Below, in pieces: positions 12,236 to 32,564 of a DNA stretch of 64,000 bases. This DNA is from Listeria ivanovii subsp. londoniensis (GTDB lineage Bacteria; Bacillota; Bacilli; Lactobacillales; Listeriaceae). Position numbers and translations under genes: made by a program. The notes under the pieces are model-generated. The model had not been told where the DNA came from and made no database searches. It saw nothing but the letters and a program-made list of their open reading frames with translations. The stretch is taken from NCBI RefSeq assembly GCF_000763495.1, contig NZ_CP009576.1:186001-250000 (forward strand). Direction: 5' to 3'. Each line of letters opens with the position of its first letter. The stretch's first letter is position 1.

Positions 12236-12268
12236 GAAAAAAAGGCACCTACTAGCTTCGGGGCCTTC
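12236..12268 (-). terminator. Terminator of the tailocin repressor operon
   Basis: On the minus strand AAGGCCCC...GGTGCCTT forms a stem with one internal mismatch followed by a run of T. It overlaps the stop codon of the metallopeptidase gene. Confidence 0.6.
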
Positions 12269-12728
12269 AAAATTTTTTATAAACATCAATAGCGCTACCA
12301 AAATTAATTAAATATTCACCGCAGTCATACATTGGTCCGTATTTTTCTGCGTAATGCGTAACAGTATTCCGCAAAAATTCCTCAGTTACTTCTAAAAAAT
12401 CGGCCACTTCAAAATATTCTCTTAGTCCGAGATAAAAACAAGTAATGATATCTTCAAGCGGGACCATTGCTTCATAACCTTTTCTACGGGCGAAAAGCTC
12501 TTGCTTCTTATCCATAATTGTTTCTTGTTTCGTAATATTACCAACTGTGTATTTATAATGCATTAATTCTTCTGCTAAAATGCATCCTTTTTCAATGGAA
12601 GACTGGTTTTTATTGATCAAAATTACTCCGTTTAAATATAGACCAGGTAATTTGTAAGGCATTTTTTCTTCTCTTATGGTTACTTCATCTTGGTATTTAG
12701 CTACCAATTTTTCATACAATAAAATCAC
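12267..12728 (-). CDS. ImmA/IrrE-type metallopeptidase of the tailocin switch
   Basis: 153 residues. The zinc-peptidase helix reads LAEELMHYKYTVG, so the motif is E-E-L-M-H (Glu53 to His57) in place of the textbook HExxH; phage members of this family commonly show EELGH. Conserved downstream sequence ARRKGYEAMVPLEDII also fits. These proteins pair with an Xre repressor and relieve repression, by cleavage in ImmA. The gene overlaps the repressor by 4 bases. In L. monocytogenes 10403S a monocin-encoded metalloprotease (MpaR) is reported as an anti-repressor acting on both monocin and the comK prophage; this gene is the positional counterpart, which I infer rather than show. Confidence 0.75.
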   Translation of the reverse strand: MILLYEKLVAKYQDEVTIREEKMPYKLPGLYLNGVILINKNQSSIEKGCILAEELMHYKYTVGNITKQETIMDKKQELFARRKGYEAMVPLEDIITCFYLGLREYFEVADFLEVTEEFLRNTVTHYAEKYGPMYDCGEYLINFGSAIDVYKKF

Positions 12729-13060
12729 ATCCCGCGATGGAGTTTTTTCTTCATCTCTATATAAGCTAGTATATCTCGCAATTCTTCATCTGTTACATCA
12801 TCATCTATGTGGGCCGCGACTGTCATTCCTCGTTCATCAACAGGAGGTAAGTTCCTTTCTGGGAAAAAGTCATCTAATCGTTTGTTAAAAATCTTCGCAA
12901 GTTCAAATAAAACATCTTGGTTTGCTTTGCGATCACCATTTTCATAGCGGCTAATAGTTTGGCGCGTGGTGTGCAAACGTTCTGCTAGTGCTTCTTGATT
13001 TAACCCACGCTCCTCACGATATTGTTTTATTTTATTTCCTACAAACTTATTCAACTCCAT
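12725..13060 (-). CDS. Xre/Cro-CI-type repressor of the tailocin
   Basis: 111 residues. The N-terminal helix-turn-helix (LNQEALAERLHTTRQTISRYENG) occupies about residues 19-41. The C-terminal tail (VTDEELRDILAYIEMKKK) is typical of small phage repressors controlled by an ImmA partner. GGAGG lies 9 bases before ATG. It is divergent from lmaD across a 215-base region holding three copies of a candidate operator, and is expected to bind there. Confidence 0.88.
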   Translation of the reverse strand: MELNKFVGNKIKQYREERGLNQEALAERLHTTRQTISRYENGDRKANQDVLFELAKIFNKRLDDFFPERNLPPVDERGMTVAAHIDDDVTDEELRDILAYIEMKKKLHRGM

Positions 13061-13106
13061 AATTATTATCCTCCACGTGTTTATGTTAATAGTGTAGCAC
13101 TATTAG

Positions 13107-13233
13107 CACCAAAATGGAACTTTTTAAGACGAAATTGTTTGATTTAATTTACTTGTAACCGAAATGGTGCTATAATAAAGTTATATTAAAAATAAAAACA
13201 ACGCAATTTTACAGCAAAAGCACCAAAACGGTG
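13107..13233. promoter_or_regulatory. Three-copy repressor operator between cI-like gene and lmaD
   Basis: Three 13-base units of the form (C)ACC-N5-GGT(G) are present: CACCAAAATGGAA at 13107-13119, AACCGAAATGGTG at 13157-13169 and CACCAAAACGGTG at 13221-13233. The third is a perfect palindrome with a 5-base centre. Unit 2 abuts the TATAAT box of the lmaD promoter and unit 1 lies over the probable -35/spacer of the repressor promoter. This is the expected design for a phage-type switch. Confidence 0.7.
13168..13176 (+). promoter_or_regulatory. Extended -10 promoter for the lma operon
   Basis: TGCTATAAT is an extended -10 element with no good -35 box upstream. It overlaps the end of the second operator unit, so repressor binding would block RNA polymerase. 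A separate inverted repeat TAATAGTG-N3-CACTATTA (13087-13105) lies on the repressor side. Confidence 0.6.
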
Positions 13234-13275
13234 ACAAGACTGTTCAAAATGGATGAATAAATTTAGGAGATGGAA

Positions 13276-13713
13276 GTGAAAATGATGGATAGAAAACTTC
13301 TGAAAGAAAAACAAATACAATTAATTTTTCAGCTAGAACAAGAAGAAAACAGATTTGTAAGGAAAAGATTATTAGAAGAACTAGAATACTTTGAAGCATT
13401 AGGAGACGAAGAAAAAGGGCTTTTAACAGCGGAGCAAAAATTACTTATTTTATCACCACAAGAGTACTTAACATATAAAAAGACATTTTCCGATGCTCAA
13501 ATTAGCAACTTAATTGGCATATCTAGATCTTCACTCGCAGAATGGAAACGAAAAAAAGGACTGTCAAAAAAGCAACGGCCTCGAATTCAACAAGAGATGA
13601 TTCAGATTTTAGCATACCATTTAGATAAAACAGAAGAGGAAATAAGCCGTTTGCCCGATGCAACGATTGAATGCCAGTATGAAGCGTTCGTAATTAACGA
13701 AGCCCATAATTAA
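13276..13713 (+). CDS. lmaD: LmaD, helix-turn-helix protein of the tailocin
   Basis: 145 residues from the GTG at 13276, preferred because AGGAG sits 6 bases upstream; ATGs at 13270, 13282 and 13285 are alternatives. The middle of the protein has a helix-turn-helix-like stretch (FSDAQISNLIGISRSSLAEWKRKKG), so it probably binds DNA. It is the first gene after the operator region. It was historically described as part of the lmaDCBA antigen operon; its direct role in tailocin regulation is inferred from position and the helix-turn-helix. Confidence 0.75.
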   Translation: MKMMDRKLLKEKQIQLIFQLEQEENRFVRKRLLEELEYFEALGDEEKGLLTAEQKLLILSPQEYLTYKKTFSDAQISNLIGISRSSLAEWKRKKGLSKKQRPRIQQEMIQILAYHLDKTEEEISRLPDATIECQYEAFVINEAHN

Positions 13714-13725
13714 GGAGTGATTATA

Positions 13726-14145
13726 TTGCAAGTACTTGTTTTACCAGAAAATAAAGAGATTAATTATATAAAAACCGTCCAAGAAGTAAAGCGGTTTTTC
13801 GCAGATTTTCAGCGTTTTCGAATGATATGTGGATTATCACAAAAGCCAAAGCTAGAAAAAAATGGTTGCTTGGAAGAACCTGTTTTTAACACAATTACAT
13901 TTTCTGCTAGACATGATAAGGAACTAATTCGCGAGGCGCAGTGGCTAGTGGAGAAATACACAACAATACTCAATCAAATGGATGCACTTTATCGAACTAT
14001 TTTACTAAGCTGCTATATCGAACGAAAGCAGGATGTAGCAATTATGATGGATTTGCCCTATGAAATCGCCCAATTTAAACGAATAAAAAAACGAGCAGTT
14101 TTGGAGCTTGCTGCGGTTTTGGGGATTTTGGTTAGGAAAGCATGA
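13726..14145 (+). CDS. lmaC: LmaC, ArpU/sigma-like late regulator of the tailocin
   Basis: 139 residues from the TTG at 13726, placed 8 bases after GGAG; a GTG at 13717 overlaps that site and is less likely. The C-terminal part (MDALYRTILLSCYIERKQDVAIMMDLPYE and on) looks like a sigma-70 region-4-type helix-turn-helix as found in ArpU-family phage late-gene activators. It is followed by a 260-base gap before the structural genes begin, a natural place for an LmaC-dependent late promoter. Confidence 0.7.
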   Translation: MQVLVLPENKEINYIKTVQEVKRFFADFQRFRMICGLSQKPKLEKNGCLEEPVFNTITFSARHDKELIREAQWLVEKYTTILNQMDALYRTILLSCYIERKQDVAIMMDLPYEIAQFKRIKKRAVLELAAVLGILVRKA

Positions 14146-14405
14146 TACTTTTGCGATATTTTTCTAAGTTATTTTTGCAGTAATATAAAGATAAGGAATT
14201 TGTCCAGTATGCGGATGACAATAAAAGCTGCATCAGAATTTGGGTGCACCGTTATTCTGATAGAGATACGTATTTGTTTTGAATTTGGATGATAATCCGT
14301 TGATATAAACAAATGATCTATTTAAGGAGTAAGACTCGGAGGAATGAATTATTAAGAATGGTCTTGACCGAGTTTTATGTTCTATTTTTAAGGAGTGAAT
14401 GCTTA
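14146..14405 (+). promoter_or_regulatory. Noncoding spacer before lmaB, candidate late promoter region
   Basis: No convincing gene fits here: an ATG at 14313 is in frame with lmaB but lacks a ribosome-binding site. The spacer holds an inverted repeat TCAGAAT (14233-14239) / ATTCTGA (14254-14260) enclosing the palindrome GGTGCACC, and two similar AATTTGG stretches (14237 and 14282). GATAAT at 14291-14296 could be a -10 box, with no clear -35, as expected for an activator-dependent promoter. Confidence 0.4.
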
Positions 14406-14795
14406 GTGAAGAGTTTGAACTTCATGAGAGTCTTAGAAGCAGCCAAAACTATGCTTCAAGAAAAAGGTGGAATCAATGTTTCTATTGTAATGCAAAATCA
14501 AGTAGATACTCCAACAACAATAATGGAAATGATTGAACAAGAAGAAGAAGAAAGTCGAACAGTGTGGAAAGAAATTTATCGTCTTGCAATCCATCATTAT
14601 TCAAGTGAGTTGGATGCTATAAAAATCGATTTAATTGATACGCTGATGCAATCGGGTTTCATTTTGCCAGAAGGGTATGAACTACTTACTATTAGGCATT
14701 ATGGAAAACAAAATTTAGTAAAAGAAGGCAATTTAACACATGCGAAAATAAGCTTTGAAATAGTTATTTGTCGCAATTTAAAAGTGAAAATTTAG
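14406..14795 (+). CDS. lmaB: LmaB, phage minor tail/head-tail-type protein
   Basis: 129 residues from a GTG at 14406, which has AAGGAG 10 bases upstream. The protein is acidic in its middle (MEMIEQEEEESR) and has no membrane segment. Its place directly before the major tail protein is where siphophages encode tail-completion or neck proteins; I infer that kind of role without recognising a specific family. It is 12 bases from lmaA. Confidence 0.65.
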   Translation: MKSLNFMRVLEAAKTMLQEKGGINVSIVMQNQVDTPTTIMEMIEQEEEESRTVWKEIYRLAIHHYSSELDAIKIDLIDTLMQSGFILPEGYELLTIRHYGKQNLVKEGNLTHAKISFEIVICRNLKVKI

Positions 14796-14807
14796 GAGGA
14801 ATTATTA

Positions 14808-15320
14808 ATGGCATTTGAAGAAAATTTATATTGTGATTATACACCGGGAGCTGCTAAAGCTGTTGCTGGGAAAGATGTGGTTTTAGCAATTTTTAACGCG
14901 GCAGGAGATAAATTACTAGCCGTTGCAGGTCAACAAGGTTTAACGATTAATCGTTCTAAAGATAGTATCGAGATTACCTCAAAAGATACAATTGGTGGTT
15001 GGAAATCTAAAATTGGCGGAATGAAAGAATGGTCAATCGAAAATGACGGTCTATATGTGGCCGATGCAGATTCTCACCAAGAATTGGCGAAATATTTTGA
15101 AAGTGATAGTCCGGTTTGTGTTAAAGTCATTAATCAAGCTTCTAAAAAAGGTCTGTTTGGTGGTTTGGCAATTGTAGCTGACTATAGTTTTGAAGCACCT
15201 TTTGATGAAGCGATGACTTATTCCATAAAACTTGATGGAATGGGTGCACTTGTTGATTTAACAATTACTGAGGGCGGAGATCAAATGCCCGGAGAAGCAC
15301 CAGTAACACCAGCGGAATAA
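14808..15320 (+). CDS. lmaA: LmaA, major tail tube protein (antigen A)
   Basis: 170 residues with the beta-rich pattern of siphophage tail-tube proteins of the phi13/TP901-1 type: an early AGDKLLAVAGQQGLTINRSKDSIEI, then TIGGWKSKIGGMKEWSIE and a late DYSFEAPFDEAMTYSIKLDGMG. It polymerises into the tail tube of the F-type tailocin. L. monocytogenes LmaA is a known immunogenic antigen. The ribosome-binding site is very strong (TTAGGAGGA). A hairpin after the stop fits its need for much higher output than downstream genes. Confidence 0.85.
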   Translation: MAFEENLYCDYTPGAAKAVAGKDVVLAIFNAAGDKLLAVAGQQGLTINRSKDSIEITSKDTIGGWKSKIGGMKEWSIENDGLYVADADSHQELAKYFESDSPVCVKVINQASKKGLFGGLAIVADYSFEAPFDEAMTYSIKLDGMGALVDLTITEGGDQMPGEAPVTPAE

Positions 15321-15324
15321 AATA

Positions 15325-15350
15325 AAAAGCCACTACAAAAAGTGGCTTTT
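15325..15350 (+). terminator. Hairpin after lmaA (partial terminator)
   Basis: The perfect 10-base stem AAAAGCCACT / AGTGGCTTTT with loop ACAAAA is followed by a short U-containing stretch and at once by the next ribosome-binding site. Readthrough must occur for the tail genes to be made, so it probably lowers transcription after the abundant tube protein or stabilises the upstream mRNA. Confidence 0.75.
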
Positions 15351-15367
15351 CCTTAGGAGGAAATGGA

Positions 15368-15670
15368 ATGTTTGAAGTGAATGATACAACCTATATTTTA
15401 CGATTTAATAAGCAAAAAGTGAAAACGGTCGAACTAACAACTGGAATTAGTTTGGTGGCTGCTTTAACTGCTAATAAAGGAATTCTAAGTTATCAAGTTA
15501 TTGAAACGCTATTTGTTTCTGGCTTAGTTGAAGAAAAAGGGCTAGTAGCTGTAAAACAAAAAGAAGCATTAGAAATTTTTGACAAATTAGTAGAAGAACA
15601 GGGTTTAATTTCTTTAAATGTAGCTGTTATTGAGAAATTACAAGAGGATATGGGTTTTTTGTTCCGATAA
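15368..15670 (+). CDS. Tail assembly chaperone, G-like unshifted product
   Basis: 100 residues. The position between major tail protein and tape measure is that of lambda G or its Gram-positive equivalents. The ribosome-binding site is strong (TTAGGAGG). Just before its end the codons read ATG GGT TTT TTG TTC, giving an in-frame T TTT TTG slippery heptamer; a -1 slip joins it to the following frame to give a 248-residue G-T-like fusion. Both products coat the tape measure during tail polymerisation in lambda-like systems. Confidence 0.8.
   Translation: MFEVNDTTYILRFNKQKVKTVELTTGISLVAALTANKGILSYQVIETLFVSGLVEEKGLVAVKQKEALEIFDKLVEEQGLISLNVAVIEKLQEDMGFLFR
15655..15661 (+). other. Programmed -1 ribosomal frameshift site (T TTT TTG)
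   Basis: The heptamer is in the correct X XXY YYZ register of the 15368 frame, nine bases before that frame's stop. After slipping, the -1 frame is open without interruption from 15661 to the stop at 16111-16113. The downstream ATG at 15781 has no ribosome-binding site, which argues that this frame is reached only by frameshifting. Confidence 0.75.
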
Positions 15671-16113
15671 AACAAATTGAGTTTGAATATTTTGGAGCAG
15701 AAGATGGAGAAACTGCAAATGAAACAAATAATGATTTTGAACTTGAGAAACAACTAGCTTTTTTCGTAGTTAATTTTCATATGACTAAACACGATTTTGA
15801 AGAGTTAACAGAGATAGAAAAAAATTTCATTATGAAAGAATGGGAAAATAAAGTCATTTTCGAATCTACAATGATGCGAAATGCAGTATTAAATGCTGAA
15901 CAAAATCTCAATCGAAAACGTAATTCTCGCTTTATTGATTTACACAAAAAACGTCAAAAGAAAGCGGACGTAAATTATACGGTAAATGCACTCCAAGCAA
16001 TTTCTGAAAATGAGGAACAAGAAGGAAAAGGATGGATTGACCGCATTTATCAAGCAAATGGTTTACAGAAACCAAAAAATAAAAAAGAAAGGGGGAAAAT
16101 TAATGGCGGATAA
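15661..16113 (+). CDS. Tail assembly chaperone, T-like extension reached by -1 frameshift
   Basis: 150 codons translated as the C-terminal part of the frameshift fusion; read alone, only a 110-residue stretch from ATG 15781 would be seen. It is charged and helical (ELTEIEKNFIMKEWENKV, then NRKRNSRFIDLHKKRQKKAD), like the T domain that binds the tape measure. Its stop overlaps the tape-measure start by 11 bases. Confidence 0.75.
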   Translation, partial: VPIKQIEFEYFGAEDGETANETNNDFELEKQLAFFVVNFHMTKHDFEELTEIEKNFIMKEWENKVIFESTMMRNAVLNAEQNLNRKRNSRFIDLHKKRQKKADVNYTVNALQAISENEEQEGKGWIDRIYQANGLQKPKNKKERGKINGG

Positions 16114-17968
16114 TAAAAAAATAAATTTAGAAATGAATGATACGGCTTTAATTGCTCAAATGAGTCAACTAGATCAAATGGTTTCAACAGTCGAAAGGCG
16201 TTTTACTGAAATGAAAATGACTATTGAAGATACTGGAAATGCAGATCCTGGATCAAAAATTTCTAACTCTCTAGGTGGCCTACAATCCAGTGTTGCCTCA
16301 ATCAGTGATGCTTTTAGTTTATTAGGGTCTAGTGGAGAGTCTATAACTTCAGGTTTTGGTGCTGCGGTAGGGTCTGTTGGAGGAATCACAGACGCATTTA
16401 AAAATCTTGGTTCCAGTGTTCAAAATGGTTCACTCTTTTCAAGCCTAGCAACAGGTATTGGTGGAATGGGAAGTATGCTAAATGGTGTTGTTGGCGGTGT
16501 GCAAGGTATTAGTAACTTAGCTAGTGGATTTATGGAGTTGAAAAAAAGCGTAGGTGGTTTAATGTCTTCCGTCGGTGGTGTTTCAGGAATTATGTCTAAG
16601 CTAACTTCTCCAATGGGGCTAGTTATTATCGGGATTGTTGCGCTTGTGGCGGCATTTGCTTATTTAATGTCAACTAATGAATCATTTAGAAATTCAGTTA
16701 TGTCAGTCGTTACACAGGTTGGTCAATTATTTGGACAATTAATAGCAACCTTGATGCCTATTATTATGCAAATTGTTACTGCGGTTGGTCAAATTGGAGC
16801 AGCTTTAATGCCGATTGTCGTGCAATTTATCGCATTCTTTGCACAACTTTTAGCACAATTAATGCCATTTATCTCCATGCTTGTATCTATGCTTATGCCC
16901 GTAATAATGCAAATTGTCCAAGCCGTCATGTCGCTTGTGTCAGCGCTTTTACCAAGTATTATGGCTATTATTCAAGGTATTATGGGAGTTATTCAGTTCT
17001 TAATTCCAATCATTATTCAAATTGCCACTGTAGTAATACAAATTGTTGTGACGATTATTTCATATATTAGTAAAATTATACCTGTCGTCATGATGATCAT
17101 TGGAGTCATTATTTCTGTTATTACTACAATTATTAATTATGTTGTTGTGATCGCAACGACAATTATAAGTATTATCGGCAAAATCATTAGTTTCGTTGCT
17201 AGCGTAATTACTGCAATCATGGGTATTGTTCAACCGATTATTGGATTTATCACCAATATCTTTAACTCAATAGTTGCTGTTATTGGGGCAGCTTTCCAGA
17301 TGGTTTTTGCAGTAGCATCAAAAATTTGGAATGCTATTTTAGCAACCATTTCGGGGATTATTGAAGGGATCAAGTCAATTATTACAGGAATATCAACCAC
17401 AGTTTCATCAGTCTTTAATGGAGTGAAACGAATTATTACTGGGGTTTTTGAAGGTATTAAAAGTGCCTGGGGTGGTTTAACAAATTTTGTGGGAACTATT
17501 TTTGACGGTGTTTCGAGTGCAATTCAAAATGTAGTAGATAATGTCAAAGGATTTGTGAATGTAGTGATTCGTGGAATTAACTCGGCAATCGGGCTTATTA
17601 ATAAAATCCCAGGTGTAGAGATTGGTAGGATTCCGCAACTGATTTCGGGGACAACAAACTTCCAAGGCGGTTTTGCAAGGATGAATGAAGGCGGTCGAGG
17701 CGAGATGGTTGTATTACCATCAGGTTCCCAAGTAATTCCGCATGATGCAACAATGAAGTATGCAAGAGAAAGTGCTCGCGGAAATAGAACTTCACTACTA
17801 TTGAATCAAGGTAATGATTTGGGTAGAGTGGAAAATCTTCTAGAGCGTTTATTACAAAAAAATCCAGTAATTAAAATGGACGATAAAGTTGTTTCGGAAG
17901 TAGTTAGTCGAAACCAAGCTAATTCGTTTGATCAGTATAACTATACAATGGGAGGTGCGGCATACTAA
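16103..17968 (+). CDS. Tail tape measure protein
   Basis: 621 residues from ATG 16103, which follows GAAAGGGGG; frames opening further upstream at 15986 overlap the chaperone and lack a site. The N-terminus is Gly/Ser-rich, and about residues 200-430 form an unusually long run of hydrophobic helices (repeated MPIIMQIVTAV-type segments), as in tape measures that also help pass the membrane. The C-terminus has GEMVVLPSGSQVIPH, common in siphophage tape measures. By the usual rule of about 0.15 nm per residue the tail would be roughly 90 nm; that is an estimate only. Confidence 0.88.
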   Translation: MADNKKINLEMNDTALIAQMSQLDQMVSTVERRFTEMKMTIEDTGNADPGSKISNSLGGLQSSVASISDAFSLLGSSGESITSGFGAAVGSVGGITDAFKNLGSSVQNGSLFSSLATGIGGMGSMLNGVVGGVQGISNLASGFMELKKSVGGLMSSVGGVSGIMSKLTSPMGLVIIGIVALVAAFAYLMSTNESFRNSVMSVVTQVGQLFGQLIATLMPIIMQIVTAVGQIGAALMPIVVQFIAFFAQLLAQLMPFISMLVSMLMPVIMQIVQAVMSLVSALLPSIMAIIQGIMGVIQFLIPIIIQIATVVIQIVVTIISYISKIIPVVMMIIGVIISVITTIINYVVVIATTIISIIGKIISFVASVITAIMGIVQPIIGFITNIFNSIVAVIGAAFQMVFAVASKIWNAILATISGIIEGIKSIITGISTTVSSVFNGVKRIITGVFEGIKSAWGGLTNFVGTIFDGVSSAIQNVVDNVKGFVNVVIRGINSAIGLINKIPGVEIGRIPQLISGTTNFQGGFARMNEGGRGEMVVLPSGSQVIPHDATMKYARESARGNRTSLLLNQGNDLGRVENLLERLLQKNPVIKMDDKVVSEVVSRNQANSFDQYNYTMGGAAY

Positions 17969-18786
17969 TGAATGACTTGTTTTTAGAGATAAATGGAGAG
18001 GTTTATTCGATGAGTGAAACGTTTCCAGGGCTTTCAGTTCAAGAAGTAGCGAGACAAAGCCCTCAATTAAACATGGAAACTGCTGAAATCGCTGGGACTG
18101 ATGGTGTTATTCCAGGAACCGTTGCTTTTAAACCATTTGTCTTTTCGGCAATATGTAATTTACAAGCACTTGATATACCTGATTATCATTTAGCTGTTAG
18201 AGAAATTTATGAGTTTCTATTTCAGCGCGAAAGTTATTATATTTGGAGTAACCAGATGCCTGGTATTCGTTATGAAGTGCATCCAAAACCTTTTGATTTT
18301 AGTAGGGAGTCAGACAGAGTTGGACTATTGACCATTGAATTTGATGTATTCAAAGGATATGCAGAATCACGGGGTACGACACTTGATCCACTGACATTTG
18401 AAGTGGATTTATGGCAAATGGGAATGAACTTATCCAACCGTGATGATCTATTTTACATTTTTAAAGAGAATTCTTTTCGTGTGTACAATGCGGGGAGCGA
18501 ACGAATTAATCCCCTAATGCGTCATGCGTTAGATATAGCAATGACTGCAAATGGGATTCCAACGATTAATAATATCACAACTGGAGACTCGTTTCAGTAT
18601 CAAAATGAACTTGAAAAAACAGATGTCTTACTATTGAATAACATCTATCCATTTGTAAATAATCGCCGAGTTGGGAAAAATACGAATCATGGAATTATTA
18701 CTTTAGAAAAAGGCTGGAACGATTTTGAAATTAAAGGTGTAACAGATGTGACAATTGCTTTTAATTTCCCGTTCATTTATCGGTAG
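17968..18786 (+). CDS. Distal tail protein (Dit-like)
   Basis: 272 residues, ATG overlapping the tape-measure stop (TAATG). The position directly after the tape measure and features such as TAEIAGTDGVIPGTVAFKPF and the late KGWNDFEIKGVTDVTIAFNFPFIYR match Dit-type hub proteins of Gram-positive siphophages. It should form the ring joining the tail tube to the baseplate. Confidence 0.8.
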   Translation: MNDLFLEINGEVYSMSETFPGLSVQEVARQSPQLNMETAEIAGTDGVIPGTVAFKPFVFSAICNLQALDIPDYHLAVREIYEFLFQRESYYIWSNQMPGIRYEVHPKPFDFSRESDRVGLLTIEFDVFKGYAESRGTTLDPLTFEVDLWQMGMNLSNRDDLFYIFKENSFRVYNAGSERINPLMRHALDIAMTANGIPTINNITTGDSFQYQNELEKTDVLLLNNIYPFVNNRRVGKNTNHGIITLEKGWNDFEIKGVTDVTIAFNFPFIYR

Positions 18787-18795
18787 GTGATGATG

Positions 18796-19932
18796 ATGGA
18801 TTATTTAATTATTCAAAGTATGGACAAAGAAGTGGAAGAGATATTGACGGATATTGACTATGGTTCATTTTCGTATGATTATGAAAAAAATACAACTCGA
18901 TCTATCTCTTTTACCGTAAATAAAACAAAACAAAATTCAAGTGTTTTTGATTTATTGGGAAACGAAGCCGTGATTATTTATCGAGATCAACAATTTGTTG
19001 TGAAAAAATGTGCCCCTAAGTCTATTGGGAAAACCATTTCTAAGCAAATAACTGCACAACATATTAGTTATACAGTGCAAGATCATGTTCAGTACAATGT
19101 GAAAAAAGGGCTAAAAAAATATTCGATTCAAACGGTAATGGAATTTGCTTTAGAGAACAATGTGTTAGGTTTTTCTCATGAAATCATAGGAAGTTTTCCT
19201 CTAGTTGAGCTAGAAGATTTAGGAAATAAGAACGGATTAGAGTTAGTTAATTTATGTTTAGAAGAATTTGGCGCAATATTATTTGCAGATAACAAAAAAC
19301 TATATTTTTATGATGAAGTTAGTTGGTATTTGAAAACAGAAAAGCAATTTCGCTACTTGTACAATACAGAAGATATTTCGGTAGATACTAATACTGATAA
19401 TTTAAAAACGCAGATAAAATGTTATGGCAAGCAAAAAGAAAATGCAGATAAGCTAACGGGAGATAACAAATATTTAGCTGTAGTTACCTATACTTCGCCA
19501 AATGAAGCTATCTATGGTAAGCGAATGGCAAATGCTAAAAGTGATGACAAAATAACAAATAATGCAGACTTATTAAACTTTGCAAAAAAACAAATTTTAG
19601 ACGTTCCTGAAACTTCTTTAAATATTACTTATAAAGGGCAAGAAGAAGTTTCAGAGCGAGATGTTTGGTATTTTATTCATGAACCAATGCATTTTGAAAC
19701 GGAAGTTAAAGTTACACGAATTAAATCAGCGCACCCGTGGAGCAGGAAGTTTCAAGATGTTGGTTTTAGTAATACGAGGCGGGATATGGTTCGGATTCAA
19801 ACCCAAATAGCAAATCAAGTTAAAAAAGCTAGTATAGATACGAATAAGATTAATTCGTTTTCAAACATCGCAATGAATGCTTTTGATTCACGAATTTTAA
19901 CGGAAGTAGTAGGTGTTGTAGATGGCGACTGA
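18796..19932 (+). CDS. Tail-associated baseplate hub protein (Tal-like/endopeptidase-tail family)
   Basis: 378 residues. Four start codons lie in tandem (GTG 18787, ATG 18790, 18793, 18796); the last has the best spacing from AGGTGA. The N-terminus resembles the gp27-like domain of siphophage tail hubs (TDIDYGSFSYDYEKN, then FVVKKCAPKSIGKTISKQITAQHISY). It is shorter than Tal proteins that carry a lytic domain, so no peptidoglycan hydrolase is expected here. The following gene overlaps it by 11 bases. Confidence 0.75.
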   Translation: MDYLIIQSMDKEVEEILTDIDYGSFSYDYEKNTTRSISFTVNKTKQNSSVFDLLGNEAVIIYRDQQFVVKKCAPKSIGKTISKQITAQHISYTVQDHVQYNVKKGLKKYSIQTVMEFALENNVLGFSHEIIGSFPLVELEDLGNKNGLELVNLCLEEFGAILFADNKKLYFYDEVSWYLKTEKQFRYLYNTEDISVDTNTDNLKTQIKCYGKQKENADKLTGDNKYLAVVTYTSPNEAIYGKRMANAKSDDKITNNADLLNFAKKQILDVPETSLNITYKGQEEVSERDVWYFIHEPMHFETEVKVTRIKSAHPWSRKFQDVGFSNTRRDMVRIQTQIANQVKKASIDTNKINSFSNIAMNAFDSRILTEVVGVVDGD

Positions 19933-20221
19933 AATTAGAGTGCTAAAAAATACAGATAATACCGTTTTCTATCCAAAAACACACTTAATGGCAATCGAAG
20001 GCCTAAATGAAGCGACATCAAGTACTGCTGGATTAATGGCTCCTAGTGATAAAACGAAATTAAATAGTATAGAAGCAAATGCGGAAAAAAATAATGTAAC
20101 AGCGGCTGATATTTCGAATTGGAATAAAAAGCAGGATACGATTTTGACTTCGGAAAATGGATTTAAATTCAAAATAGTTGTAACGGATACTGGAGAATTA
20201 AAGACAACTAAAGTGGATTAG
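19922..20221 (+). CDS. Small baseplate/fibre protein with FYPxTH module
   Basis: 99 residues. It carries VFYPKTHLMAIEGL (from about residue 18), a motif shared with the genes at 20826 and 21302, and then STAGLMAPSDKTKLNSIEANA, a short phage-fibre-type motif. It probably belongs to the receptor-binding baseplate. I recognise the phage-fibre style, not a named family. Confidence 0.65.
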   Translation: MATEIRVLKNTDNTVFYPKTHLMAIEGLNEATSSTAGLMAPSDKTKLNSIEANAEKNNVTAADISNWNKKQDTILTSENGFKFKIVVTDTGELKTTKVD

Positions 20222-20235
20222 AAGGGGAGGTATTT

Positions 20236-20811
20236 ATGAAATTAGACTTATGGAAATGGGAAATGCTCCTTCAAGGGCGTGAGTTCAGAAATAAAACTAA
20301 CGATAATTGGCAGAAATTAATGGATTGGTCCAGTTTTATTTCAACTGGTTTGGACGCAATTTATGTATATATCAATAAAGCAGACGCAAGCCTAAATCAA
20401 AAAATTGATACAGTGGATAAAGCAGTAAATGTAAGAATAAATGAGCTGATTAATGGGGTTCCGCAGCTAGATGAAGTTGTTGATGCTAGAACAGATGCGT
20501 TTGGTGAGAAATATCCAGTTTTAAGAGCGCGTTTAAATGAGGAGCAAGTGATTTATAGTAAAAAGAGTACGCTGCAATTTGATGTGGATAGTATTATTTC
20601 GATGCAAGAACAAGATATTGGACTGCTTACTAGTAAATCAATTACAGAACCGCAAACAGTTTGCTTTTTAAATGTTTCAAGCCTGGATGAGCAAGCAGAT
20701 ATTATTCTTGAAAAAACAGGGGAGACTAGTTTTTCAGACAAATTAACTAGTTTAGTATTTGCGAGAATAGGAACAAATGAACGTTACCAAATGGAACAAT
20801 TGGTTGTGTAA
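20236..20811 (+). CDS. Baseplate protein of Listeria phage type
   Basis: 191 residues, GGGGAGG 6 bases before ATG. The N-terminus (DLWKWEMLLQGREFRNKTNDNWQKL) followed by a predicted coiled-coil (NKADASLNQKIDTVDKAVNVRINELING) suggests a trimeric connector between hub and receptor-binding proteins. Similar proteins occur in Listeria siphophage baseplates; the assignment is positional. Confidence 0.6.
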   Translation: MKLDLWKWEMLLQGREFRNKTNDNWQKLMDWSSFISTGLDAIYVYINKADASLNQKIDTVDKAVNVRINELINGVPQLDEVVDARTDAFGEKYPVLRARLNEEQVIYSKKSTLQFDVDSIISMQEQDIGLLTSKSITEPQTVCFLNVSSLDEQADIILEKTGETSFSDKLTSLVFARIGTNERYQMEQLVV

Positions 20812-20825
20812 AGGAGGAGTGAAGT

Positions 20826-21305
20826 ATGACTGAAATTAAACGAATGCTACAAACAAAGGAAGATCAGTCAAAAGAACAATTTTATCCAGAAACACATGTG
20901 GAAGGAATTGTTGGGTTAACAGATTTTGTTTCTGGCCAACTTCCAACAGGTGTTGTTAGTGTTAATGGCAAGTCTGGCAGTGTTTTGCTAGAAGCAGCAG
21001 ATGTTTATGCCGCAAGAAAAGATCATAATCATAATGTAGCTACTTACACAACAGATGGATTTATGAGTTCGTTTGATAAAATAAAAATGGATGAACTAGT
21101 ATCGCCGGAAGCAGGCGTTGTAAGTGTTAATGGGAAAACGGGCATTGTTGATTTATTTGCATCTGATGTTGAAGCAGCAACAGTGAACCACACCCACTCA
21201 GATGCTTCAGCTAGTGAAAGTGGATTTTTATCAATAGAAGACAAAGGAAAACTAGATGCGATGCCAATAATCGCGCTGGAGACTATTAAGGAGGTAATAG
21301 AATGA
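20826..21305 (+). CDS. Receptor-binding/fibre protein with duplicated VNGKxG module
   Basis: 159 residues. QFYPETHVEGIVGL near the N-terminus is the shared attachment motif. Then a unit GVVSVNGKSGSVLLEAADV...DHNH...DGFMSSFDKIKMD is repeated as GVVSVNGKTGIVDLFASDV...NHTHSD...SGFLSIEDKGKLD. The VNGK-G-V motif and HxH turns are common in trimeric phage fibres. It overlaps the next gene by 4 bases and probably contributes to binding of target-cell wall polymers. Confidence 0.7.
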   Translation: MTEIKRMLQTKEDQSKEQFYPETHVEGIVGLTDFVSGQLPTGVVSVNGKSGSVLLEAADVYAARKDHNHNVATYTTDGFMSSFDKIKMDELVSPEAGVVSVNGKTGIVDLFASDVEAATVNHTHSDASASESGFLSIEDKGKLDAMPIIALETIKEVIE

Positions 21306-21838
21306 CTAAAATTGTAAAAATGTCAGAGAAAAATGAACACGGAACTTTAGAACAATTCTATCCAGAAACACATGCCGAGGCTGTTCAGGGGCTAGTGACA
21401 GTTTCGGAAGAGGAAAAAGCTACTTGGGAAGGGAAAGAAAGCCCAGCAGGAGCAGAACAAAAAGCAAATGGGGCATTAAATAGCGCCAAAGATTATGTTG
21501 ATACTATTGGAGCGGGGACGGTCGTATTTCAAGGAGCTAATATTATGGCAGCTGGTCAGAAATATAAGTGGGAAGCTTCTAAATTGAAATTTGGTATTAC
21601 TTTATTATTCAGCCGCTATGACTCGGCAAATAATACGCCACTAGATTATTATTATCATTCAGTTTTCTTATCGAAAGCTCAATTAGCTAATCTTGCAGGT
21701 AAGGGCTTATTAGTGAATATGCCTTCAACTGTTTATGGGGAACGAAAATATTTATATGTATCAGAGACTGAGGTAGCTGGGCACAATGACAATCTAAATA
21801 ATGCTTCATGGGCGTTACGTCAAGTCACTGTAATGTAA
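21302..21838 (+). CDS. Receptor-binding protein of the tailocin (terminal)
   Basis: 178 residues. After the shared QFYPETHAEAVQGL motif the protein has its own C-terminal globular part (from about residue 85), the likely specificity domain, in the last structural-gene position before lysis. In described monocins the receptor-binding protein decides which Listeria serotypes are killed; applying this to the present gene is inference. Confidence 0.65.
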   Translation: MTKIVKMSEKNEHGTLEQFYPETHAEAVQGLVTVSEEEKATWEGKESPAGAEQKANGALNSAKDYVDTIGAGTVVFQGANIMAAGQKYKWEASKLKFGITLLFSRYDSANNTPLDYYYHSVFLSKAQLANLAGKGLLVNMPSTVYGERKYLYVSETEVAGHNDNLNNASWALRQVTVM

Positions 21839-21856
21839 TCAAAAAGGAGGTTTTCC

Positions 21857-22279
21857 ATGGAAGTCCTACTAAAAGTTGGAATGCTGGGATTTGGTGCGTT
21901 ATTTGGATACTTATTTGGGGAAGTGAGTTTGTTGGTAAAAGTGCTTGTGTGCTTTATGGTAGCTGATTATATTTCCGGACTACTCGCTTCCGGCTATCTA
22001 GGGGAACTCAGCAGTAAAATGGGTTTCAAAGGAATCGCCAAAAAAATTGCTATTTTAATTTTAGTAGCTGTTGCGCATCAAATAGATTTGATTATGGGAA
22101 CGCATAATACAACGCGTGATGCGGTTATCTTTTTCTATTTAGCGAATGAGCTGATTTCTATCTTGGAAAATTTTGTGCGAATGGGAATGAAAGTCCCAGA
22201 AGTTTTAAAGAATTTAATTATGATTTTTGATTCAAAATCAGGAAAAGAGGAAGAAAAACATGACAAAAATATGGATTGA
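21857..22279 (+). CDS. Phage holin (phage_holin_4/TcdE type)
   Basis: 140 residues with three hydrophobic segments (about 5-40, 60-75 and 90-115) and the family pattern CFMVADYISGLLASGYLGELSSKMGFKGIAKK. The charged C-terminal tail (KEEEKHDKNMD) is typical. It permeabilises the membrane so the amidase can reach the wall and the particles are released. AAGGAGG precedes ATG, and the stop overlaps the amidase start by 20 bases. Confidence 0.88.
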   Translation: MEVLLKVGMLGFGALFGYLFGEVSLLVKVLVCFMVADYISGLLASGYLGELSSKMGFKGIAKKIAILILVAVAHQIDLIMGTHNTTRDAVIFFYLANELISILENFVRMGMKVPEVLKNLIMIFDSKSGKEEEKHDKNMD

Positions 22280-22997
22280 TGCAGGGCATGGTGGAAAAGA
22301 TTCAGGGGCAACTGGGAACGGGCTGGTAGAGAAAAATTGGGTGTTAGCGGTCGCAAAACAAGTGCAAGTAGAATTGAAAAATGCTGGTTTTGAAGTAGGA
22401 ATGACTAGGACAAATGATACTTTTTATGAATTAAGTGATCGGGCTACGAACGCCAATAAATTTAAAGCAGACTTGTTTATTTCAATCCATTTCAATGCTG
22501 GTGGTGGAATGGGATATGAAGATTACATTTTCACTTCCACACCGGCAAAGACAAAAGAAATTCAAAAATCAATTCACAAAAATGTGATTGCCAAAGCTTC
22601 AAAACACGGAATGCGTGATCGTGGTATGAAAAAAGCGAATTTTGCAGTTCTGCGGGAGACGGTGATGGACGCGATTTTACTGGAGGCTGGTTTTTGTGAT
22701 AGTAGTGATGCAGCAATTCTTAAAACGCAGTCCTACCAACAAGATTTTTGTTTAGGAATTGTAGAGGCTGTGAAGGAAATATTTGGTGCTAAAGATGCTC
22801 TGGTAACAAAGTATCAAGCAGGAAAATACTCAACAAGTGATGATGCGATTTCAGGTAAAAATCTAAAAGGTTATTTACCAGCTGGGACAAAAGTTTTTGT
22901 TTATAAAGAATTAGCACAAACAATTAATTTAACAACGACAAAAGGTGTCCCGGGAAGTTGGGTCTTAAAAACGGAAGTCAATACGGGGAAAAGATAA
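22260..22997 (+). CDS. N-acetylmuramoyl-L-alanine amidase (Amidase_3 endolysin)
   Basis: 245 residues from ATG 22260 (WIDAGHGGKDSG follows immediately; in-frame sequence before it is holin coding DNA). Zinc ligands are visible: His in DAGHGG, Glu in VEKNWVLA, His in FISIHFNAG, and the catalytic Glu in ILLEAGFCD. The C-terminal 65 residues (YQAGKYSTSDDAISG and on) form a separate, probably wall-binding, domain. It lacks a signal peptide, as expected for a holin-dependent endolysin. Confidence 0.9.
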   Translation: MTKIWIDAGHGGKDSGATGNGLVEKNWVLAVAKQVQVELKNAGFEVGMTRTNDTFYELSDRATNANKFKADLFISIHFNAGGGMGYEDYIFTSTPAKTKEIQKSIHKNVIAKASKHGMRDRGMKKANFAVLRETVMDAILLEAGFCDSSDAAILKTQSYQQDFCLGIVEAVKEIFGAKDALVTKYQAGKYSTSDDAISGKNLKGYLPAGTKVFVYKELAQTINLTTTKGVPGSWVLKTEVNTGKR

Positions 22998-32147: not shown

Positions 32148-32564
32148 TTGTATAGATTATTCAGTATTATTTTTTTTGGAATAGCAGTAATTTGTTTGTT
32201 CTTTCCATGGATGTCAAGCGGTGTGGACGCAGAATCGTTTGAATTAGTTTATGAGCCAGCTTATAAATTAATATGGATGCAACCAATTATTATTTTAGGA
32301 TATCTAAGTTTTATTATTACTATTTCTATTCCGAGATTTCAAAAAGGGACTAATAAAATTGTGCCATTTATTGGGCTGTTAGTATTAGTATTAGGTTTAT
32401 TAAATTTGGCAGTTAGACCACTGTTTGGATTTAGCACATTTACATTTAGTATACTAAGTACTTACATTACTGAATTAGTAGAACCGGCATTTATTATCGC
32501 AGTATTGGCAAGTGTTGTATCGTTAATTATGTATGCAATATATTTAAAAACATCGGAGGATTAA
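32148..32564 (+). CDS. Small four-helix membrane protein of unknown function
   Basis: 138 residues from a TTG start with GGGAGGTG 6 bases upstream. Four hydrophobic segments are visible (about 4-22, 45-60, 72-92 and 110-132), with a short loop (DAESFELVYEPAYKLIWMQP) between helices 1 and 2. I do not recognise a family. The next gene, encoding a secreted protein, follows with its ribosome-binding site inside this gene's end, so the two are translated together. Confidence 0.7.
   Translation: MYRLFSIIFFGIAVICLFFPWMSSGVDAESFELVYEPAYKLIWMQPIIILGYLSFIITISIPRFQKGTNKIVPFIGLLVLVLGLLNLAVRPLFGFSTFTFSILSTYITELVEPAFIIAVLASVVSLIMYAIYLKTSED

Follow-up and report, generated by a model that had tools for sequence, protein, structure and literature searches.

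Two overlapping reading frames in a Listeria tailocin most probably form a single gene, from which programmed -1 ribosomal frameshifting would yield products of 100 and 248 residues; we put the probability of this reading at about 94%. Slippage of this kind had been proposed from the letters of the locus alone (the original prediction), and it is supported by comparison with homologous loci, in which the slippery heptamer is conserved, the second frame lies -1 to the first in 115 of 116 cases, and the second frame is under selection. The product lengths given in that prediction agree with frame arithmetic, by which the short product, G, would have 100 residues and the fused product, GT, 98 + 150 = 248. 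Here G also denotes the zero frame and T the -1 frame, and the window is the whole stretch of 64,000 nucleotides analysed, positions 186001-250000 of the 3.05 Mb single-contig genome of Listeria ivanovii subsp. londoniensis.

Two overlapping frames in a monocin locus

The locus at 12267-22997 of the window is a Listeria monocin, an F-type tailocin of the ftb type (for monocins, see excerpts of PMC7076858 and PMC6872733). Its genes encode a repressor, a metalloprotease, an ArpU-family regulator, a tail terminator, a TP901-1-family major tail protein, the two chaperone frames, a tape measure protein, Dit, Tal, a holin and an amidase. An F-type tailocin is recognised by such content, in which the tail and lysis genes of a siphophage are present but genes for capsid, portal and terminase are not. 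A scan of 17 proteins from this interval gave no match to a head family (eight were compared with Pfam, PHROGs and NCBIfam, and nine with Pfam alone), and the tailocin setting claimed for both frames at the outset is thereby borne out. Seven of the 17 proteins have no Pfam match, and three of those seven match a PHROG. The tail genes are ordered tail terminator, major tail protein, G, T, tape measure, Dit and Tal, which places two overlapping frames between the major tail protein and tape measure genes, as in G/GT pairs. The window is 99.2% identical to a Listeria immobilis locus (L003) across 3300 nt of the locus. The features discussed below are collected in Table 1.

Table 1. Features of the chaperone region, in window coordinates.
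Feature	Position	Strand	Basis
Major tail protein, lmaA/ftbG type	14808..15320	+	PF06199 1.1e-35; TIGR02126 TP901-1 family 2.7e-39
Hairpin in the gap separating the tail protein and G genes	15325..15350	+	fold -13.2 kcal/mol, z -4.6
Shine-Dalgarno AGGAGG of the G ORF	15355..15360	+	sequence; pairing energy -10.2 kcal/mol
Zero-frame ORF, putative G-type tail assembly chaperone, 100 aa	15368..15670	+	phrog_2115 'tail protein' 6.5e-9; homologues weakly match Phage_TAC_12
Second canonical zero-phase heptamer G_GGT_TTT, overlapping T_TTT_TTG	15652..15658	+	canonical heptamer here in 73/116 loci
Slippery heptamer T_TTT_TTG	15655..15661	+	in phase with the zero frame; T_TTT_TTN in 99/116 loci
-1 frame, putative T domain of GT, 150 aa followed by a stop	15661..16113	+	phrog_7423 2.3e-38; homology from the first residues in phages and other Firmicutes
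Zero-frame stop TAA	15668..15670	+	sequence
Earliest ATG in the -1 frame, not regarded as a start	15781..15783	+	Shine-Dalgarno energy +0.5 kcal/mol; conserved coding upstream
Tape measure protein, whose ORF begins within the end of the T frame	16103..17968	+	phrog_58 1.7e-40; Shine-Dalgarno energy -11.0 kcal/mol

The end of the zero frame (15650-15670) reads ATG GGT TTT TTG TTC CGA TAA. An X XXY YYZ heptamer, T_TTT_TTG, stands in phase there as had been claimed, but six bases separate it from the TAA, and the nine originally given are reached only by counting the stop itself. One codon earlier lies G_GGT_TTT, so that the combined site is G GGT TTT TTG. The -1 frame is open as stated, from 15661 to 16113, although its opening already begins at 15634, behind a TGA at 15631, and extends to the stop at 16111-16113. 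The ATG at 15781, once described as the only one in this frame, is the first of four, the others lying downstream at 15832, 15871 and 15874. It does lack a ribosome-binding site, its pairing energy standing against clearly favourable values for the starts at 15368 and 16103 (Table 1), and no ATG, GTG or TTG precedes it in the window's -1 frame. The second frame is thus a -1 frame without a start of its own, which is a further mark of G/GT pairs.

By itself, such a motif is weak evidence, because similar features arise by chance: among 91 mechanical ORFs of at least 80 aa in the window, 11 have a zero-phase heptamer in their last 30 nt, and two combine a heptamer with a -1 frame open for at least 100 codons. 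It is the conservation of the heptamer that carries the case. The other ORF with both features, at 32148-32564 (zero-phase TTTAAAA and an open -1 frame), was rejected as a candidate; it is an ordinary TAATG overlap, and the next gene has its own GGAGG.

The hairpin ahead of the G gene was found in nine aligned Listeria-type loci, and its stem is altered in L043/L044. It is a possible attenuator or processing site and may cause the genes after it to be expressed less than the tail tube protein. A putative terminator is marked just upstream of gp14 in the record of Listeria phage A118.

Conservation of the frame relation, the slip site and the second frame

Homologous loci were collected from 25 genomes of the genus, in 11 of which (the window's own included) a G match marks the tailocin as present; from 395 genomes of the order (18 with a T match including the window's own, two of them dropped as chance); from phage records (20 with a T match, 17 of them from Streptococcus phages); from contigs of named genomes (25 loci); and from viral contigs (58 loci). 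The 116 loci compared form 77 clusters at 98% identity and 63 at 90%, and the latter is the better count, since the 116 contain the same genomes from several collections. Left out were L050 and L051 (regarded as chance matches, E 3e-4 and 6e-4), L034 (the window's own locus), L017/L018 (contigs shared with L077/L078), the partial record H33, and L013/L014, which are Listeria phage fragments with the heptamer present in both. Two alignments (A2 and A3) comprise the window and the named-genome and viral-contig loci only, and they cover 40 and 43 of the 63 cluster representatives.

The -1 relation of T to G holds across many genera and several collections, and no locus among the 116 has G and T in one continuous frame. 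The sole exception to -1 is Streptococcus phage Taco (L022), which has a +1 relation and five T. Its T run is one base shorter than in its cluster mates CSJC, Mushu, P738 and D4446, the heptamer being lost, and this could be either a natural variant or a homopolymer sequencing error.

T_TTT_TTN is kept in 99 of the 116 loci and in 53 of the 63 clusters, its Z base being C in 46, G in 27 and A in 26 of the 99. At least one canonical heptamer is present in 103 loci, and a conserved in-phase heptamer is again a feature of G/GT pairs. The 13 loci without any comprise 11 with GGG TTT ATG, one with GCT TTT ATG (L067), and Taco. The original prediction had looked to conservation of the heptamer among homologues, and its loss where both frames persist was to count against slippage. 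The outcome is clearly in favour of slippage, though with exceptions. Taken literally, the 13 loci are losses of exactly this kind, yet 12 of them retain the same -1 overlap. On the tree, the TTT ATG forms are nested within a family in which T_TTT_TTN is otherwise retained, and they require four changes, three of them forced by well-supported branches; nine of the ten TTT ATG rows fall in one 12-row lineage, and the tenth, L079, groups with Listeria. Codon usage at the site is also distinctive. The slip-site Phe codon is TTT in all 63 cluster representatives, compared with 195 of 261 other Phe codons of the same ORFs, and NNT TTT occurs at 58 of the 63 slip-site positions but at only 46 of the 261 others (Fisher P 3e-29, which overstates the contrast, the rows being related).

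Purifying selection on the second frame sets in at the slip site. Among 11 Listeria-type loci, one of them a viral contig, substitutions at T-frame codon positions 1, 2 and 3 number 0, 18 and 178 in codons 4-12, and 10, 0 and 167 in codons 33-40, where all pairs are counted and are not independent. Both intervals precede the window's first T-frame ATG, which is codon 41; some other loci have one sooner, at codon 22 or 32. All 43 aligned sequences share Pro2 of the T domain. That T would be translated from the slip and not from an internal ATG is well supported, and selection upstream of 15781 contradicts the annotation of the second frame as a stand-alone gene, as had been argued at the outset. 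The family phrog_7423, of unknown function, aligns with T only from residue 24; this late start fits a family that may have been built on gene calls truncated at internal starts.

Alternatively, T could be a separate gene, translated alone, either starting at 15781 or through re-initiation coupled to G near its stop. It is annotated as a separate CDS, never joined to G, in the 17 Streptococcus phage records, but the starts chosen there fall at six different offsets and have Shine-Dalgarno energies of -0.6 to no better than -3.0 kcal/mol. Some ATG, GTG or TTG does occur in the T frame before codon 10 in 34 of the 116 loci and in 20 of the 63 representatives. For example, five of the 63 have an early TTG with a Shine-Dalgarno energy of -5 kcal/mol or better (L074, L108 with -10.3, L119, L121 and L132), and L076 has an early ATG that lacks a Shine-Dalgarno sequence. 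However, no such codon lies between the upstream stop and T codon 10 in 82 of the 116 loci, the window included, or up to codon 17 in 69. Given also the conserved T codons upstream of the poorly equipped ATG at 15781, we regard separate translation as very unlikely.

It is also conceivable that RNA polymerase, and not the ribosome, slips on the T run and produces a mixed mRNA population. Six T in a row are indeed found in the window and in 99 of the 116 loci, but 17 loci have shorter runs (three T in 11, four in five and five in one), and this explanation is disfavoured because the 16 of them with only three or four T keep the -1 relation. Moreover, NNT TTT TTN stays in register with the codons, a requirement for tandem slippage of tRNAs. 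Transcriptional slippage is therefore highly improbable. Still further from likely, to a degree that we consider negligible, is a single ORF split by sequencing error or by decay of a prophage gene. The region is a prophage remnant, and Taco shows that single-base run changes occur in records; nevertheless, the same -1 overlap recurs throughout the comparison apart from Taco, and the T frame is maintained by selection. Only in L063 and L093 is the T frame open for at least 85 codons upstream (90 codons in each), and there the zero frame carrying G is open as well, with the G-like protein of L063 being read from that frame.

Downstream structure and a stem-loop lineage

For ribosomal frameshifting in the window, no downstream stimulator is supported by the predicted fold, with z of -0.85, -1.6 and -0.46 over 40, 60 and 90 nt, and -1.7 for the 60 nt counted from the Z base. 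A consensus fold (alifold) of ten Listeria-type loci reaches -2.6 kcal/mol over 39 nt, and we propose no stimulator for Listeria. In the set of 63 representatives, the 40 nt that follow the slip form slightly more stable folds than shuffles do, with a mean z of -0.85 and 27% below -2, compared with 6% at a control place. This signal is confined to some lineages, and none of the 24 members of the CCT_TTT_TTC group lies below -2. Upstream of the slip, the site of an AGAGG resembling a Shine-Dalgarno sequence, pairing has a median energy of -4.0 kcal/mol and is stronger than elsewhere in G, where the median is -2.2 kcal/mol (Mann-Whitney P 1e-7). Synonymous shuffles give z near zero (mean -0.29, median 0.03), so this signal comes mostly from the amino acids, and an internal Shine-Dalgarno stimulator was rejected.

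In a related lineage, a stem-loop starts 5 nt after the slip, with z below -2 in 10 of 12 representatives. Stem-loops 5-35 nt past a weakened TTT ATG slip were observed in L057, L058, L067, L068, L100, L112, L113 and L045. Stem z falls below -2 in eight of ten TTT ATG representatives and in eight of the 53 others. In L116 and L118 the stem coexists with T_TTT_TTG, and no strong stem accompanies the TTT ATG of L049 and L079. In one fixed register, three stem pairs were changed on both sides, a number that 92 of 500 shuffles also reach. Perhaps, then, the chaperone family combines a double slip site (G_GGT_TTT over T_TTT_TTG) with an exchange between slip strength and RNA structure, in which T_TTT_TTN was repeatedly relaxed to NNT or NNG TTT ATG in the stem-loop lineage. 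We think this less probable than its negation, and the trade-off stays a suggestion because covariation does not rise above the shuffles. If true, the family would be a natural series for the exchange of heptamer and stimulator at a kept product ratio.

Relation to known tail assembly chaperones

Tandem tRNA slippage by -1 is the simplest reading of the overlap, and we infer the slippage, its rate, the heptamer used of the overlapping two and the roles of the products as follows. Most ribosomes would read G and terminate at 15668. A minority would slip back one base on GGT TTT TTG, where the tRNAs would re-pair one base upstream on the T run, and would go on to complete GT. A rate of a few percent would fit, since HK97-like chaperones gave measured values of 6-7% (excerpts of PMC3711429). 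The junction in GT would mainly read EDMGFL-VPIK if T_TTT_TTG is the heptamer used, and EDMGFF-VPIK if it is G_GGT_TTT. If lambda and TP901-1 are a guide, G would coat the tape measure protein, and the T domain of the few GT copies would recruit the major tail protein, such that the tube could polymerise to the right length. Judging by their position and by these two phages, G and GT are probably tail assembly chaperones. Family models add little. No Pfam chaperone model matched the window's G, although its homologues give weak matches to Phage_TAC_12 (17 of 40, best E 2.6e-4 at a limit of 1) and to the tail chaperone family phrog_183 (five of 40, at up to 0.01). Such models give no chaperone support for T, and neither the G nor the T profile matched a solved structure at E up to 1.

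Lambda carries G/GT between its major tail protein and tape measure genes, with the heptamer G_GGA_AAG. The Listeria pair occupies the same position, and its slip site likewise lies near the end of the first frame. Unlike lambda, its heptamer is T_TTT_TTG and its particle is a headless tailocin, and the likeness is drawn from layout. The proteins of the two frames had no Pfam match. In lambda, -1 slippage near the end of the first frame gives a short and an extended product, gpG and gpGT, that handle the tape measure and tail proteins (PMC5009743, in excerpt). ORF43/ORF44 (gpG/gpT) of Lactococcus phage TP901-1 follow a major tail protein of the same family as that of the window (TIGR02126), and the layout is also the same, since zero-phase GGGAAAG precedes a -1 frame that overlaps the first and carries an ORF annotation of its own. 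However, the slip site differs, and G and T are not recognisably similar to their TP901-1 counterparts (hhalign probabilities 1.7% and 0.5%, with single TP901-1 sequences). Excerpts of PMC4493119 state that this phage uses GGGAAAG and that both products are needed for tails.

Streptococcus siphophages with an LmaA-like tail protein (Javan407, P738, CSJC and others) have homologous G and T with the same overlap. In 16 of 17 records, C_CCT_TTT_TTC (14) or T_CCT_TTT_TTC (two) stands at the identical place, with the zero-frame stop 12 nt after the slip as opposed to 6 nt in the window. Unlike the tailocin, these phages have capsid genes annotated upstream (Javan407, Javan271). The gp14/gp15 ORFs of Listeria phage A118 also lie between tail shaft and tape measure genes, with A_AAA_AAA in phase near the end of gp14, but the gp15 frame is closed just upstream of its ATG and there is thus no overlapping -1 fusion. 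We take Lmo0119 and Lmo0120 to be G and T of L. monocytogenes. The former is listed in a proteome study whose main text, in the portion covered, does not list Lmo0120 (PMC8407217). No statement of a frameshift in the monocin chaperone was found in the parts of the literature that the search covered. The frameshifted G/GT type of chaperone is already known, and this tailocin instance would be a new member of it.

These findings correct the gene model of the tailocin, in that the two annotated frames would be one gene read in two ways. The T domain, represented by phrog_7423 with a profile that begins about 20 residues in, becomes the C-terminal half of a probable tail chaperone. Expressing the monocin genes singly would miss the GT protein. 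Finally, a tailocin that has no head has kept the frameshift site, which suggests that assembly of a tail of defined length is still under selection.
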